In this document: piece by piece, positions 57,392 to 62,584 of the stretch
Position numbering within the stretch: the first letter of the stretch is position 1
Layout of the letters: every line of letters starts with the position of its first letter
Source: Oscillospiraceae bacterium
GTDB taxonomy: Bacteria; Bacillota; Clostridia; Oscillospirales; Oscillospiraceae
Assembly: GCA_910575695.1 (NCBI GenBank)
Contig: CAJTGJ010000003.1
Span: 62,001-126,000 of the forward strand
Length of the DNA: 64,000 bases
Direction of reading: 5' to 3'
Program-made: the position numbers and the translations under genes
The notes under the pieces: model-generated
What the model saw: only the letters and a program-made list of their open reading frames with translations
Told to the model about the DNA's origin: nothing
Database searches by the model: none

Positions 57392-58120
57392 ATGTCAGGA
57401 CATTCCAAGTGGCATAATATTCAAAAGACCAAGGGCGCGGCGGACGCCAAGCGGTCCCAGACCTTCACCAAAATCGCCCGTGAGATCATCGTGGCCGTCA
57501 AGACCGGCGGCTCCGGCGACCCCAACAATAACTCCCGTCTGGCAACCGTCATCGCCAAGGCCCGGGCCGCCAATATGCCCAACGACAACATCAAGCGCAC
57601 CATCGACAAGGCCGTGGGCTCCGGCAACGCCAACGACTACGAGTCCATTACCTACGAGGGCTACGGCCCCGGCGGCGTGGCCGTCATTGTGGAGACCCTC
57701 ACCGACAACCGCAACCGCACCGCCTCCGACGTGCGCCACTGCTTTGACAAGTTTGGCGGCAACCTGGGCGCCACCGGCTGTGTGTCCTGGTCCTTCGACC
57801 AGAAGGGCGTACTGGTCATTGAGCGGGAGGACCTGGATGAGGAGACTGTCATGATGGACGCCCTGGACTGCGGCGGGTTGGACTTTGAGGCGGATGAGGA
57901 CTGCTTCACCGTCTACACCGCCCCGGACGATTTCGCCGCCGTGGTGTCCGCCATGGAGGAAAAGGGCTACGTTTTTGCCTCCGCCCGGGTGGAGATGGTG
58001 CCCCAGAACTATGTCACGCTGTCCGGCGAAAAGGACATCAAGAACATGGAAAAGCTCATCGACACCATGGAGGACAACGACGACGTGCAGAACGTCTGGC
58101 ATAACTGGGAACAGGAGTAA
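57392..58120 (+). CDS. yebC: YebC/PmpR (TACO1) family protein
   Basis: A 242-residue conserved protein: N-terminal MSGHSKWHNIQKTKGAAD, then the three-domain YebC fold (NMPNDNIKRTIDKAVG; YEGYGPGGVAVIVETLTDN; GGNLGATGCVSWSFDQKG). Known roles in the family are transcription regulation (PmpR) and relief of ribosome stalling on difficult motifs. Single gene. GAAGGGA precedes the ATG. Confidence 0.95.
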   Translation: MSGHSKWHNIQKTKGAADAKRSQTFTKIAREIIVAVKTGGSGDPNNNSRLATVIAKARAANMPNDNIKRTIDKAVGSGNANDYESITYEGYGPGGVAVIVETLTDNRNRTASDVRHCFDKFGGNLGATGCVSWSFDQKGVLVIEREDLDEETVMMDALDCGGLDFEADEDCFTVYTAPDDFAAVVSAMEEKGYVFASARVEMVPQNYVTLSGEKDIKNMEKLIDTMEDNDDVQNVWHNWEQE

Positions 58121-58305
58121 TTCGATTCAAAAGTCCCTGTTTTAACTTGGCTTTTTGAAAATTTTGCGACTTATTTTGATGGCTGGTTTAACCAGATAAA
58201 GCAAAAAATCCGGTGAGCGACGCGATGCATCAGACCTGCTGTTGTGCTGTACATGGGGGCTGATGTGATGCGTCTTTCGGCGGCTGTACAAGACTATTCT
58301 GATAG

Positions 58306-58363
58306 AGATCGAGGTTAGGAAGTACACCCATAAGGGGTATCATACTAACCTTGGTCTCTTTTT
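58306..58363 (+). terminator. Long intrinsic terminator upstream of the TnpB-like gene
   Basis: A 13-bp stem with two G-U pairs (58306-58318 with 58345-58357) encloses an ACCC/GGGT hairpin and is followed by TTTTT at 58359-58363. Upstream, 58219-58305 also contains pairing segments (CATCAG/CTGATG, TTGTGCTGTACA/TGTACAA), so a short structured RNA ending here is possible. Otherwise the 568-base gap 58121-58688 shows no convincing gene. Confidence 0.7.
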
Positions 58364-58487
58364 GTGTTTTTGTGAGGAAATAGCCGGAATGCGTCGAAAG
58401 GACCCGCACAGTGTGGGCTGGGGGAAAAGTCCGATGTGATTGCATTGGAGACGTACCGATCAGCGTCATTCTGCGGGTGGCGGCAAG

Positions 58488-58533
58488 AAAAAACCTTGGA
58501 CGGAGTAGTATACTACTCCGTCCAAGGTTTTTT
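58488..58533. repeat. Perfect 46-bp palindrome P1
   Basis: Each arm is 23 bases without a mismatch, centred on GTATAC: AAAAAACC TTGGACGG AGTAG TA and its complement. With T6 at the right end it can act as a terminator hairpin in both directions, or as an operator. It shares its design with P2 at 58609-58642. Confidence 0.9.
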
Positions 58534-58608
58534 GAACTTTTAACTTCCTCGTTCTGTTCTATTTGTCGGCACTCTTTCGGAAGAATTAAGACTTTTCCGA
58601 AAAAATTT

Positions 58609-58642
58609 TTTTGGACGGTATTGTATACAATACCGTCCAAAA
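58609..58642. repeat. Perfect 34-bp palindrome P2
   Basis: Arms of 17 bases, TTTTGGACGGTATTGTA and its exact complement, again centred on GTATAC, 46 bases upstream of the TnpB-like start. Between P1 and P2 a further hairpin TTTCGGAA/TTCCGAAA lies at 58575-58602. Confidence 0.9.
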
Positions 58643-58688
58643 TTTTGAGGCATGGCCTGGCCGAACAGGCACGAGGGGGGGTACGGAC

Positions 58689-59870
58689 ATGGCGTGGAAA
58701 AAGCGCGGCGTCGCGGATGGAGAAGCGGTCCAGTACACCACCATCAAAGCGCGTCTTTATCCCGATGAAGCCCAGGCGGAGCTGTTCGAGAACACCTTCG
58801 GCTGCTGCCGGTACATCTGGAACCGGATGCTGGCGGACCAGCAGAGGTTCTACCTGGAAACCGACCAGCACTTCATTCCCACCCCGGCCAAGTACAAAAA
58901 AGAAGCGCCGTTTCTGAAAGAAGTGGACAATCAGGCGCTGATCCAGGAGCACAACAAGCTCTCTCAGGCATTCCGCGTGTTTTTCAAAAATCCGGAATCC
59001 TTCGGCCGCCCCAAATTCAAAAAGAAAAAAACCGACCGGGATTCCTTCACCGCCTGCAGCCATGAATTTGAATCCGGTCCCACCATCTACATCACGAAAA
59101 ACGGCCTGCGCCTGACCAAAGCCGGAATTGTCCGGGCAAAATTCCCCCGCCGTCCCCGGAACGGCTGGAAGCTGAAGCGTGTCACGGTGGAAAAAACAAA
59201 AACGGGCAAATTTTACGCCTGCATCCTTTATGAGTACGCCGTCAAGGCGCCGGAACCCGTTGTCCCCACGCCGGAAACCACGCTGGGCCTGAAATACTCC
59301 ATGGCCCGCTTCTACGCGGCGGACGACGGCTCTGCCGCCGACGCCCCCCACTGGCTCAGGCAGTCCCAGGAAAAGCTGGCAAAGCTCCAGCGCCGGCTGA
59401 GCCGGATGGAACCCGGTTCCAGAAACTACCGGGAAGCCGTCCAAAAATACCGCTTGCTCCACGAGCACATCGCCAACCAGCGCCGCGACTTCATCCACAA
59501 GGAATCCAGCCGGATAGCCAACGGCTGGAACGCTGTGTGCATGAGAGGCGATTCCATGCAGGAAGTGTCGAAAAAGAAAGTCCTGCCTGGAAACGCGCTG
59601 GATTCCGGGTTCGGGATGTTCCGGGAGTGCCTGCGCTACAAGCTGGAGCGGCAGGGCAAGCCGTTGATTCTGGTGGACCGCTTCACCCCCACCACCCGCA
59701 TCTGTTCCGCCTGCGGGGAGCTGCGGGGCTGCGGCCTGCACCGGCGGGCCGTCTGGGTCTGCGCCAAATGCGGCGCGAAACACCAGCGCGAGGCCAACGC
59801 CGCGAAAAACATCAAGGCCCAGGGCCTTGCCCAATATTTCAACCGTCAGGAATTGCGCGAAAGCGCCTGA
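58689..59870 (+). CDS. tldR: Nuclease-dead TnpB homologue (TldR-type RNA-guided repressor)
   Basis: A 393-residue TnpB/OrfB-family protein: N-terminal wedge and REC regions (TIKARLYPDEAQAELFENTF; CRYIWNRMLADQQ), RuvC domain and zinc finger (Cys339, Cys342, Cys358, Cys361). All three catalytic acids are gone: the GIDLG position reads GLKYS (Lys202), the 'VEDL' Glu position reads CMRGDS (Arg286), and the HDRD Asp reads HQRE (Gln366). The flanking family motifs (QRRDFIHK, VDRFTPTTRICSACG, NAAKNI) are intact, so the fold is under selection without cleavage. No tnpA or element ends seen. Lies just before csrA and flagellin. GAGGGGG precedes the ATG. RNA-guided repression is inferred from TldR precedent. 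Confidence 0.85.
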   Translation: MAWKKRGVADGEAVQYTTIKARLYPDEAQAELFENTFGCCRYIWNRMLADQQRFYLETDQHFIPTPAKYKKEAPFLKEVDNQALIQEHNKLSQAFRVFFKNPESFGRPKFKKKKTDRDSFTACSHEFESGPTIYITKNGLRLTKAGIVRAKFPRRPRNGWKLKRVTVEKTKTGKFYACILYEYAVKAPEPVVPTPETTLGLKYSMARFYAADDGSAADAPHWLRQSQEKLAKLQRRLSRMEPGSRNYREAVQKYRLLHEHIANQRRDFIHKESSRIANGWNAVCMRGDSMQEVSKKKVLPGNALDSGFGMFRECLRYKLERQGKPLILVDRFTPTTRICSACGELRGCGLHRRAVWVCAKCGAKHQREANAAKNIKAQGLAQYFNRQELRESA

Positions 59871-60010
59871 ATACAACCCCAGCTATACCGCCCGGGACAG
59901 CGGTGAACGCCCATGGTTCCGGCTGGGAGCGTTGAGTGAAGCGAAATTGCCCCGCAATCCCGTTTCACTCAGGGTTTTCCAGGCCGTTAAGTGGGAAACG
60001 AGAGGGTATC
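59871..60010 (+). ncRNA. Candidate guide (omega-type) RNA 3' of the TnpB-like gene
   Basis: The intergenic stretch after the stop, where TnpB guide RNAs normally end, is highly structured: ACCGC/GCGGT (59887-59904) inside CCCAGC/GCTGGG (59878-59927), then GAGTGAA/TTCACTC (59934-59970) enclosing ATTGC/GCAAT. The scaffold may extend back into the coding region. The guide would start after about 59970. Within it, GCCGTTAA (59983-59990) differs by one base from a sigma-28 -10 box. Exact ends cannot be set by eye. Confidence 0.5.
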
Positions 60011-60073
60011 TTTTCTTCGGAAATCGTGCCTGAAGCCCTCCGGGGCGTCCACAATATTATGACGATGAAACAT

Positions 60074-60091
60074 GGCCCAAAGGATTGGGCC
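60074..60091 (+). promoter_or_regulatory. GGA-loop hairpin in csrA leader (CsrA site)
   Basis: GGCCCAA pairs with TTGGGCC leaving the tetraloop AGGA, the geometry CsrA proteins prefer. A second GGA lies in the ribosome site AAAGGAG (60100-60106). Together they suggest csrA autorepression. Confidence 0.6.
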
Positions 60092-60112
60092 GCAGGCGAA
60101 AGGAGTTTGCCC

Positions 60113-60361
60113 ATGCTGTTTTTGCAGTTGAAAGACAAGGAATACCTGACCATCGGCGACGACATCGTTATCCAGGTATTCACCAATTCCACCATCCGGG
60201 TATCGGTCCAGGCCCCCAGGGAGCTGGCGGTCCTCCGGGGCGAGGTGCTGGAGCGCAATGGAAGCCAGCGGCCCCGGGCGGTGTTCGGCAAAAGCCCGGA
60301 ACAGGTGAAAAAAGAGCAAAAACGTCAGAAAACCAACCAGAATCCGGTTTCAAACGGCTGA
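60113..60361 (+). CDS. csrA: CsrA translational regulator
   Basis: An 82-residue RNA-binding protein: the 60-residue CsrA core (MLFLQLKDKEYLTIGDDIVI, then IRVSVQAPRELAVLRGEVLER, with the RNA-contacting Arg in the last strand) plus a basic ~25-residue tail. It dimerises and binds GGA-containing hairpins near ribosome sites; in Bacillus it represses flagellin and is antagonised by FliW, which is not in this window. The ATG at 60113 is set by AAAGGAG and the family N terminus. It sits between the TnpB-like gene and flagellin. Confidence 0.9.
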   Translation: MLFLQLKDKEYLTIGDDIVIQVFTNSTIRVSVQAPRELAVLRGEVLERNGSQRPRAVFGKSPEQVKKEQKRQKTNQNPVSNG

Positions 60362-60447
60362 CGAGCCGGTTGGAATACAGCCCCGTACCGACAGGCAGGG
60401 CCGCTGGCGCGCACAGCGGATCGCTGAACGGTACTCCACCCAGCGGC

Positions 60448-60463
60448 GGGACACGGACGTCCC
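60448..60463 (+). promoter_or_regulatory. GGA-loop hairpin in flagellin leader (CsrA site)
   Basis: GGGAC and GTCCC form a stem with the hexaloop ACGGAC, matching the CsrA consensus loop. A second GGA overlaps the flagellin ribosome site GAGAGGAAG (60503-60511). This two-site arrangement parallels the Bacillus hag leader. Confidence 0.65.
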
Positions 60464-60520
60464 TCCGCGCCGGAACCGCGAAACCCCAAAATCATTTTAT
60501 TTGAGAGGAAGATTTATAAA

Positions 60521-62584
60521 ATGAGGATCCAACACAACATCATGGCCATGTCCGCGTATCGCAACTACACCAACAATGTGTCTGCGATGAAGAAGAACCT
60601 GGAGAAGCTCTCCAGCGGCTACAAGATCAACCGCGCGGGCGACGACGCCGCCGGTCTGGCGATTTCTGAGAAGATGCGCGCCCAGATCACCGGCCTGGAG
60701 ACCGCCCAGAAGAACGCCAAGGACGGCATCAGCCTGGTGCAGACCGCCGAGGGCGCTCTGACCGAGGTCCACGATATGCTCAACCGTATGGTGGAGCTGG
60801 CCACCCAGTCCGCCAACGGCACCTACGACAACACCACCGACCGCGCTCAGATGCAGAAGGAGGTCAACCAGCTGCTGGAGGAAATCGACCGCATCGCCGA
60901 CTCCTCCAACTTCAACGGCATCAATCTGCTGGACGGCTCTCTGGGCCTGAATACCGACGCGTTCGAGGTGGGCGGCGTTGCGGCAGGCGTGGCCGCTGTG
61001 CCGGGCACGCCCATTACTGGCGCTGCTTCGGCAGGTGCTTCGACCGACGCCGATACCCACGTTAGCGCAACTGCCGCTGGTCAGAACCCCTCCTTCTCCG
61101 TGGACGTAGCCGACCTGGAAATCACTGTCACCGGCTCCACGGCTCAGAATGCAACCTTTACGATTGGCACCAAGACGGTCCAGGTTTCGCTGGCGGGCGG
61201 CACGAAGGCTACCTCTGTGACAAAGTACACCGCCAGCGACATTGCCGATAAGATCGTTGCGGCCTTCAACAGCGGCACGAACGCCGCCGGAACCGCGAAC
61301 TCTGCCGGCGCTGTCAAGGGACTGATGTTCAGCGCAGCAGTGGGCAGCGATGGCCATACCATCAACTTTACCTATGAGGGCGTGGCCAACGCAGGTGGTA
61401 CCGCAGTGGATGGGAGCGCCACGCTGGGTAGCACAGCGGCCAGTGCTTTCAATGCCCTCTACGGCGGCGGTTTCTCAGCTGCCGCTTCTGTGACCGGTAA
61501 GCTGGAGATCACCTCTGGTCGTGTCAACTGTGACATCCTGAACGCCAAGGAAGCTGTTGCTGCGGGCGACACTCAGCGCGGCGGCATCTCCTTTACCCTG
61601 GCAAGCAGTGCGATTGCCGATGGCAACAAAATCACCATTGATGGCAAGGAGTTCACCATCAGGACCACCGGCACCGGCACGTTTGGCAGCGATGTCATCG
61701 ACCTGCGCGGCGTTGCCTCCGACGAGTTGCTGCGCCAGACCGTCCTCCAGCTGTCCAACAAGACCACCGACAACTTCACCATCCACACTGCCAGTGCGGA
61801 CGGCGGCAAAATCCACCTGGAGCAGACTGCGGAGAGTTTCAATGGCGGCAATGGCAAGCTGTATGGCTACGATGAGCTGAGCAAGCTGGTTTCTGTCACG
61901 GGCGGCGGCACTCCCGCCAAGGGCGCGGGCACCATTCTGGACGTCACCGCCGCCAACGTCAAGGCGGGCAACGTGCTGAAGATCGGCGATGGCAGCAACG
62001 CTGTCGAGATCAAGTTTGGCGCGAGCGACACCACCGCCACCGCTATCAAGGCCAAGATTGAGGCCGCCGGATTCACTGTGGACATTGCTACCGGTACTGC
62101 CGCCAGTGGTGTTGCCTCCGGCGCTACCCGGTTCATCATCCGCTCCAACGACCTCACCGCCACCAAGGGTCCCCAGATCCTGGGCAAGGGCCTGACCCTC
62201 CAGATCGGCGACACCAGCGACGATTTCAACCAGCTGAACGTGGCCGTGCAGGATATGCACGCCGAAAACCTGGGCATCGGCAACCTGGACATTTCCACCG
62301 AGGAAGCCGCCCAGGCCGCGATCAAGAAGATCAAGGACGCCATCAACACCGTGTCCGATGTCCGCGGCACCCTGGGCGCTACCCAGAACCGTCTGGACCA
62401 CACCATCAACAACCTGTCCGTCATGACCGAGAACATCCAGGACGCCGAGAGCACCATCCGCGACGTGGACGTGGCCGAGGAAATGATGGCTTACACCAAG
62501 AACAACATCCTGATCCAGTCCGCCCAGGCCATGCTGGCCCAGGCCAATCAGGTGCCCCAGGGCGTGCTCCAGCTCCTCCAGTAA
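60521..62584 (+). CDS. fliC: Flagellin
   Basis: A 687-residue filament subunit. The conserved N-terminal D0/D1 region (about 1-145; LEKLSSGYKINRAGDDAAGL, VQTAEGALTEVHDMLNRM) and C-terminal region (about 585-687; STIRDVDVAEEMMAYTKNN and ANQVPQGVLQLLQ) are intact; the middle ~430 residues are Ala/Gly/Thr-rich and surface exposed. Longer than the minimal ~270-residue flagellins. The leader carries CsrA-type sites. No clear sigma-28 promoter was found immediately upstream, so it may be read from the csrA side. Confidence 0.95.
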   Translation: MRIQHNIMAMSAYRNYTNNVSAMKKNLEKLSSGYKINRAGDDAAGLAISEKMRAQITGLETAQKNAKDGISLVQTAEGALTEVHDMLNRMVELATQSANGTYDNTTDRAQMQKEVNQLLEEIDRIADSSNFNGINLLDGSLGLNTDAFEVGGVAAGVAAVPGTPITGAASAGASTDADTHVSATAAGQNPSFSVDVADLEITVTGSTAQNATFTIGTKTVQVSLAGGTKATSVTKYTASDIADKIVAAFNSGTNAAGTANSAGAVKGLMFSAAVGSDGHTINFTYEGVANAGGTAVDGSATLGSTAASAFNALYGGGFSAAASVTGKLEITSGRVNCDILNAKEAVAAGDTQRGGISFTLASSAIADGNKITIDGKEFTIRTTGTGTFGSDVIDLRGVASDELLRQTVLQLSNKTTDNFTIHTASADGGKIHLEQTAESFNGGNGKLYGYDELSKLVSVTGGGTPAKGAGTILDVTAANVKAGNVLKIGDGSNAVEIKFGASDTTATAIKAKIEAAGFTVDIATGTAASGVASGATRFIIRSNDLTATKGPQILGKGLTLQIGDTSDDFNQLNVAVQDMHAENLGIGNLDISTEEAAQAAIKKIKDAINTVSDVRGTLGATQNRLDHTINNLSVMTENIQDAESTIRDVDVAEEMMAYTKNNILIQSAQAMLAQANQVPQGVLQLLQ

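Follow-up and report, generated by a model that had tools for sequence, protein, structure and literature searches.

A 64,000-nucleotide (nt) stretch of an Oscillospiraceae bacterium genome (GenBank assembly GCA_910575695.1, contig CAJTGJ010000003.1, positions 62,001 to 126,000; hereafter, the window) encodes a TnpB homolog that has lost its catalytic acids (tldR), followed by csrA and a flagellin gene (fliC). We consider it highly probable that this locus is a csrA-associated TldR system with a predicted guide RNA (gRNA) that silences a flagellin encoded elsewhere in the genome, on contig C16, and spares the neighboring flagellin, with the linked CsrA and a Hin-type FliA promoter switch as further components. 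The kind of system is already published: the main text of PMC13418256 (Nat Microbiol 2026) describes csrA-associated TldRs of gut commensals (Oscillibacter and Flavonifractor plautii), studied by RNA immunoprecipitation sequencing (RIP-seq) and chromatin immunoprecipitation sequencing (ChIP-seq). The novelty lies in the nature of the differences between the guide and the neighbor flagellin, most of which are silent codon changes. Self-sparing through synonymous changes has no wording in the main text of that paper, although its figures or supplements may show it, and a literature search returned no further paper on csrA-associated TldR systems among the matches listed. RNA-guided repressors derived from transposon nucleases must avoid silencing their companion gene. 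A distinction written in silent bases makes guide-target coevolution readable in genomes and would allow the flagellin silenced in the on state of the switch to be predicted from sequence.

The three genes follow one another on the same strand, in the order that the sequence-only reading of the locus had given:

58689-59870, forward strand: tldR, a TnpB homolog of 393 amino acids, with K202, R286 and Q366 replacing the catalytic D, E and D
60113-60361, forward strand: csrA paralog linked to tldR (Pfam CsrA, 47.2 bits; cut-off 27)
60521-62584, forward strand: adjacent flagellin of 687 amino acids, predicted to be spared by the guide (NCBIfam flagellin models)

The tldR product shows full-length homology to TnpB (NF040570, 228 bits; cut-off 100) and matches the Pfam families HTH_OrfB_IS605, OrfB_IS605 and Cas12f1-like_TNB. 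K202, R286 and Q366 align with D191, E278 and D361 of ISDra2 TnpB (8h1j), which we take to be the catalytic acids of that protein, and the four zinc-finger cysteines are invariant in all 14 tldR orthologs compared; the earlier description of a TnpB homolog without its RuvC acids is thereby confirmed. In a census of 63 sequences with more than 50% identity, the window protein counted in, the first acid is gone from every member (K in 56, N in 4, Q in 2, C in 1), as is the second (R in 60, K in 2, Q in 1); at the third position, D is retained in 17 and replaced in 46, including the window protein. Estimates by NG86 for the window tldR and seven relatives (nonsynonymous divergence, dN, 0.14-0.18; synonymous divergence, dS, 0.70-1.05) indicate that the protein is under purifying selection. 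A structure model of moderate confidence (mean pLDDT 65.9, pTM 0.55) adds little: the predicted fold is closest to TnpB, and ISDra2 TnpB (8h1j, 8bf8), among the best three by sequence, is the top solved structure.

A scan of 84,980 species genomes yielded 78 loci, which together with two loci of the window's own genome make 80. The record titles of the 78 name Oscillospiraceae, Oscillibacter, Flavonifractor, Flintibacter, Pseudoflavonifractor, Lawsonibacter, Agathobaculum and others. Of the 80 loci, 71 reach 50% identity or more in their best aligned segment; of these, 56 keep the order tldR-csrA-fliC, 5 have fliC with no csrA detected, and 10 have neither gene, several of these lying at contig ends or carrying a truncated tldR. 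At the nine remaining TnpB-like loci (up to 38% identity), neither csrA nor fliC was found (0/9). In the window, csrA and fliC both lie inside 3 kb of tldR, starting 246 and 654 bases, respectively, from the end of the tldR match; hits of the csrA gene to NCBIfam csrA models fall under their cut-offs. Within the same genus, 13 of 42 genomes have a tldR match, that of G029 at 35% identity only. In a FastTree phylogeny of 70 proteins, with an outgroup of only 7 distant TnpBs and the published TldR accessions absent, the 63 TldR-like tips, the window protein included, form a single group with support 1.0; without L174, L175 and L177, the group (60 tips) has support 0.74. These three deep-branch loci (51-55% identity) have fliC, and csrA was undetected there. 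In the best aligned segment, the window protein shares 66% identity with the F. plautii ATCC 29863 locus and 75% with one locus and 70% with another of Oscillibacter sp. 1-3, which are possibly, but not necessarily, the loci tested in PMC13418256.

The own clade, the conserved link to csrA and flagellin, and the predicted gRNA bear out the view of the sequence-only reading that the protein is TldR-like and domesticated. Close relatives with intact acids and scattered genomic neighborhoods, both of which would speak against this view, were looked for and not found in the clade. A separate new exaptation, as proposed at that time, it is not, given that csrA-associated TldRs have been characterized in PMC13418256; the proposal is already known in outline. 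No transposase was recognized when the open reading frames (ORFs) were read by eye, no search aimed at TnpA or element ends having been made; the earlier statement that element ends are lacking overlooked the palindromes at 58488-58533 and 58609-58642.

We give hardly any credence to the possibility that tldR is a functionless IS605 remnant, decaying or stranded beside csrA and flagellin. The missing acids, a truncated, 98% identical tldR fragment on contig C5, and the lack in the window of the hin gene that many relatives have nearby would all be in keeping with a remnant, but the low dN relative to dS, the covarying scaffold described below and the gene order kept in 56 of 71 loci run counter to it.

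Other copies of these genes occur in the same genome. A second complete tldR-csrA-fliC locus (L031) is present at C9:47794-50001. The truncated tldR copy (L033, C5:20471-21079) shares 98% identity with the window gene across 584 nt; its similarity to the window stops before the scaffold, and its surroundings (8 kb) contain no csrA or flagellin match. A third csrA (L034, C2:224108-224257), the nearest of the three to the Pfam model, adjoins a gene that by eye resembles fliW.

The 242-nt gap between tldR and csrA encodes the predicted gRNA, which would be transcribed as a structured scaffold followed by a guide:

59884-60052, forward strand: predicted gRNA scaffold with a 23-base-pair (bp) helix, ending in GTCCAC (RNAalifold, 40 loci)
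60053 onward, given to 60068, forward strand: predicted guide AATATTATGACGATGA, which fits codons 6-10 of the C16 flagellin

Of the 58 scaffolds, 40 entered the alignment, namely those no longer than 171 nt, with L132, L140, L160 and L167 excluded. Two-sided changes occur in 25 of the 41 predicted pairs of the consensus structure. The number of cells with changes on both sides is 153 compared to 47.1 in shuffles, and 95.8% of the cells pair, compared to 87.0% when shuffled and 36-48% when partners are slid, the consensus structure being favored over the slid versions because it was derived from the same alignment. Values as high as those observed were reached in none of 500 shuffles on four of five measures and in 5 of 500 on the fifth. 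Rfam gave zero matches in window positions 58000-60700.

The scaffold end, GTCCAC in the window, reads GTCCAA or GTTCAC at many other loci, and the usual guide start after it is AATATTATGAC. At L174, L175 and L177, the same end, GTCCAC, precedes guides in another register, which supports the boundary between scaffold and guide. The first base of these guides corresponds to the G of a flagellin start codon, so the target register has shifted in evolution. The main text of PMC13418256 reports a two-part, RNase III-dependent gRNA with a long, expanded stem-loop, and by analogy, the 23-bp helix may be the counterpart of the RNase III-cut stem in the published relative. A guide start directly after GGGAAACGAGAGGG (TATCTTTTCTTCGGAA in the window, CGTGTGCGCACGCCTG in the C9 copy) was tried and rejected: it has no flagellin match, and the stretch is a scaffold hairpin in the alignment of relatives.

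The window guide agrees with the coding start of the C16 flagellin at all nine leading bases and at 13 of 15 overall; the target site reads CAC AAT ATT ATG GCA ATG. When up to three mismatches over 20 nt were allowed, the own genome contained three matches, namely, the guide itself, the guide of the C9 locus and the C16 flagellin start. There is no tldR match in the 12-kb stretch around the C16 flagellin. The corresponding site of the adjacent flagellin, CAC AAC ATC ATG GCC, mismatches the guide at positions 3 and 6; both differences are synonymous and fall within the first six guide bases. According to the main text of PMC13418256, 6-nt guides are enough for repression by an Enterobacter-type TldR (seed of 6 nt). 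The C9 guide also fits the C16 flagellin at nine of nine leading bases and differs from its own adjacent flagellin at one of nine (position 6), compared to two of nine for the window pair. Window position 60062 corresponds to guide position 10, the site of a nearly fixed A-versus-G mismatch. At another locus (L180, genome G037), tldR is split into two frames and the guide is still present, matching a flagellin of the same genome at nine of nine leading bases.

Two parts of the earlier interpretation are not supported by these matches. The guide fits the distant C16 flagellin and not its neighbor. Silencing had been placed at a promoter; promoter targeting was set aside because the guide match, at codons 6-10, lies in the coding sequence of another flagellin. 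For the published relatives as well, the RIP-seq and ChIP-seq data in the main text of PMC13418256 place the guide targets inside the ORFs of alternative flagellin genes.

We compared 58 guides with 125 flagellin starts from 56 genomes. Of 127 starts, two were dropped (G040:C7, not flagellin-like; G455:C60, with a stop in the start). Guides were delineated by the scaffold-end pattern at 58 of 67 mapped loci, with none from L153, L165, L174-L178, L181 and L183; by eye, L153 has the usual guide, and 13 of the 78 loci were unmapped. The 9-nt guide core is perfectly matched by the adjacent flagellin in 4 of 57 cases and by a non-adjacent one in 31 of 47. In a paired comparison (n=46), in which a genome with several non-adjacent flagellins was represented by the best-fitting one, the own flagellin fits worse in 38 cases, equally in 8 and better in none; averaged over all non-adjacent flagellins, the mean number of mismatches is 0.55, versus 1.85 for the own flagellin. 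Likewise, 42 of 64 non-adjacent starts contain CACAATATTATG, compared to 3 of 61 adjacent ones. The 10-residue protein start MRIQHNIMAM opens 45 of 57 adjacent flagellins and 57 of 64 non-adjacent ones and is therefore common to most spared and targeted flagellins, so that the distinction resides mostly in silent bases.

The choice of isoleucine codon points in the same direction. The rare codon ATA occurs at codon 7 of the adjacent flagellin, within the seed, in 14 of 58 cases. It accounts for 15 of 1908 Ile codons (0.8%) from codon 13 on in the same adjacent genes, for none of 60 at Ile codon 3, and for 2 of 64 at codon 7 of the non-adjacent starts. Codon preference is a poor explanation because ATC is the preferred codon. 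It appears rather likely to us that the adjacent flagellin is selected to avoid its own guide through synonymous changes, including ATA, and that the guide tracks the wobble bases of its target, a codon-level self-immunity of the operon.

An initial covariation test, for which the best-fitting non-adjacent flagellin was chosen where there were several, gave agreement at guide position 12 in 30 of 47 cases. This choice is biased at position 12, and the test was accordingly redone in genomes with one distinct non-adjacent start. Position 12 then agrees with the wobble base of the non-adjacent flagellin in 18 of 32 cases versus 10.5 in shuffles (p 0.0007), or 14 of 27 versus 8.75 with one locus per genome (p 0.006); for the adjacent flagellin, agreement is 10 of 31 versus 13.0. 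These shuffles, like the Fisher tests, treat loci of common ancestry as independent, which makes the p values too small to an unknown extent. At L168 and L192, the guides read AATATTTTG, as does the non-adjacent flagellin, and the adjacent flagellin reads AATATTCTG; the Leu TTG codon of the target is mirrored in the guide. Guide position 7 covaries with both adjacent and non-adjacent flagellins because both follow Met or Leu.

These patterns bear on two other accounts of the guide-like segment. One takes it for the leader of csrA mRNA, translated or CsrA-binding, that resembles flagellin only in passing, with TldR acting elsewhere or not at all. This account, which we regard as improbable, draws on the location of the segment directly before csrA, on an open frame in the window (59936-60361) that spans it into csrA, and on the conservation of ATGAC at most loci, though flagellins have ATGGC. 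Yet the segment begins exactly at the conserved scaffold end, position 12 tracks the wobble base of the non-adjacent rather than the adjacent flagellin, the guide is altered along with the Leu codon of the target at L168 and L192, and the three deep-branch loci have a different guide behind GTCCAC that fits another place in the flagellin start.

The other account, that the guide mainly silences incoming or phage-borne flagellins with the same start and that the match within its own genome is incidental, seems to us very improbable. It would accommodate the conservation of the guide core across species, and the published Enterobacter TldRs are prophage-carried (main text of PMC13418256), but the matches are found in flagellins of the same genomes and covary with the guides, and a scan of a viral collection produced a single close match (L198, 72%; the other 21 reach at most 40%) that is likely host DNA. 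This IMG/VR contig carries tldR-csrA-fliC and a gRNA region resembling that of L133.

The proposed silencing of the C16 flagellin by TldR would be tied to a promoter switch, for which candidate elements lie upstream of tldR:

58488-58533, no strand: left palindromic site of the putative inverton, a perfect palindrome (2 x 23 bp)
58609-58642, no strand: right palindromic site of the putative inverton, a perfect palindrome (2 x 17 bp), its center 115 bp from that of the left site
58564-58588, reverse strand: FliA/SigD-like promoter in the predicted OFF orientation (TAAT-N14-GCCGACA)

The two palindromes resemble the recombination sites of a Hin-type invertible promoter and enclose the FliA-like site, which came from a scan with a loose form of what we take to be the FliA/SigD consensus. 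At L129, a similar palindrome is located shortly past the end of the hin gene, and the FliA-like sites of L129 and of the C9 copy have the same orientation as that of the window. With the loose consensus, among 66 loci, the site faces away from tldR at 21 and toward it, within 260 bases, at 7. Between L147 and L151, a 114-base middle segment is inverted, with identical flanks of 313 bases before and 39 after it, and these opposite orientations show that inversion of such a segment occurs in nature. The main text of PMC13418256 describes F. plautii inversions of about 120 bp that carry the FliA promoter and reports hin upstream of most, not all, loci. In our set, a hin match above 50% identity is present in the fetched stretch at 44 of 80 loci (L150, short pieces only). 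The own genome encodes a Hin relative on C17, 81% identical to the linked Hin of L129, and another on C45 (62%); the former could act in trans. Just before the putative inverton, the window and C9 loci share some 100 nt (58388-58490) at 92% identity, with no match in the other loci compared and none in Rfam; the hin gene of L129 ends at about this place.

With respect to CsrA, all 11 standalone flagellins and 46 of 61 adjacent ones, that of the window not among them, have an ANGGA that overlaps the ribosome-binding region, and a hairpin ANGGA was scored for 8 of the 11 standalone and 42 of the 61 adjacent flagellins, that of the window among them; because these counts have no chance control and do not separate targets from spared genes, nothing is drawn from them. 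The main text of PMC13418256 reports binding of CsrA to the 5' untranslated region of the target flagellin, and by analogy, the linked CsrA probably also represses the translation of flagellin mRNA.

In the scheme that we propose, TldR would bind the gRNA encoded just 3' of its gene, and the complex would occupy the coding start of the C16 flagellin, likely blocking its transcription, while the neighboring flagellin would escape thanks to its synonymous differences from the guide. The FliA-type promoter in the Hin-type invertible segment would drive the tldR-csrA-flagellin genes. With the promoter turned on, the adjacent flagellin would be made and the other silenced, following the logic of Salmonella Hin/FljBA.

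Several observations weigh against this scheme, in whole or in part. The window guide mismatches the C16 flagellin at position 12. At position 10, where every target has G, 43 guides have A and one has T, an unexplained mismatch in 44 of 47. The best non-adjacent flagellin is imperfect over 9 nt in 16 of 47 cases. Conversely, the adjacent flagellin matches guide bases 1-6 in 7 of 57 cases; among these, L162, L168 and L192 differ at guide position 7, L158, L163 and L169 have CAT, not CAC, just before the site, and L146, where csrA was not found, is a plain self-match. Guide position 3 shows no covariation with the target (p 1.0), and position 6 is hardly variable. Furthermore, CACAATATTATG is present in 13 of 46 flagellin starts from 26 genomes of the family without a TldR hit (at most four candidates were scored per genome, so a TldR could be missed); TldR carriers are hence not alone in having the target sequence, and change may have run in either direction. 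As assembled, the FliA-like promoter of the window faces away from tldR, and there is no hin beside the window or C9 tldR locus. Finally, the draft genome consists of 296 contigs and its contamination is estimated at 6%, which leaves room for an origin of the three flagellin loci in more than one strain.

The window system combines features of several known ones. The TldR protein shares its fold and zinc finger with ISDra2 TnpB (8h1j, 8bf8), a transposon-encoded RNA-guided DNA endonuclease whose three acids are replaced in the window protein. In Salmonella, the invertible promoter of hin-fljBA controls both a second flagellin and the repressor of the first. The arrangement described here is similar in having a putative invertible promoter and a flagellin accompanied by a predicted repressor of another, but the Salmonella repressor is FljA, whereas here it would be an RNA-guided protein. 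As with the Enterobacter prophage TldR and FliCP in the main text of PMC13418256, one flagellin would be silenced by an RNA guide with a short seed and another supplied; in contrast, the Enterobacter TldR is prophage-encoded and was tested with a gRNA directed at the fliC promoter region, whereas the site predicted for the window lies within an ORF. The closest similarity is to the csrA-associated TldRs of the same paper. Unlike most of these, neither tldR locus of this genome has hin beside it, but the loss of the nuclease acids and the proximity of csrA and fliC are common to both, as would be guides directed against the ORFs of alternative flagellins, a long gRNA stem-loop and an invertible FliA promoter upstream.

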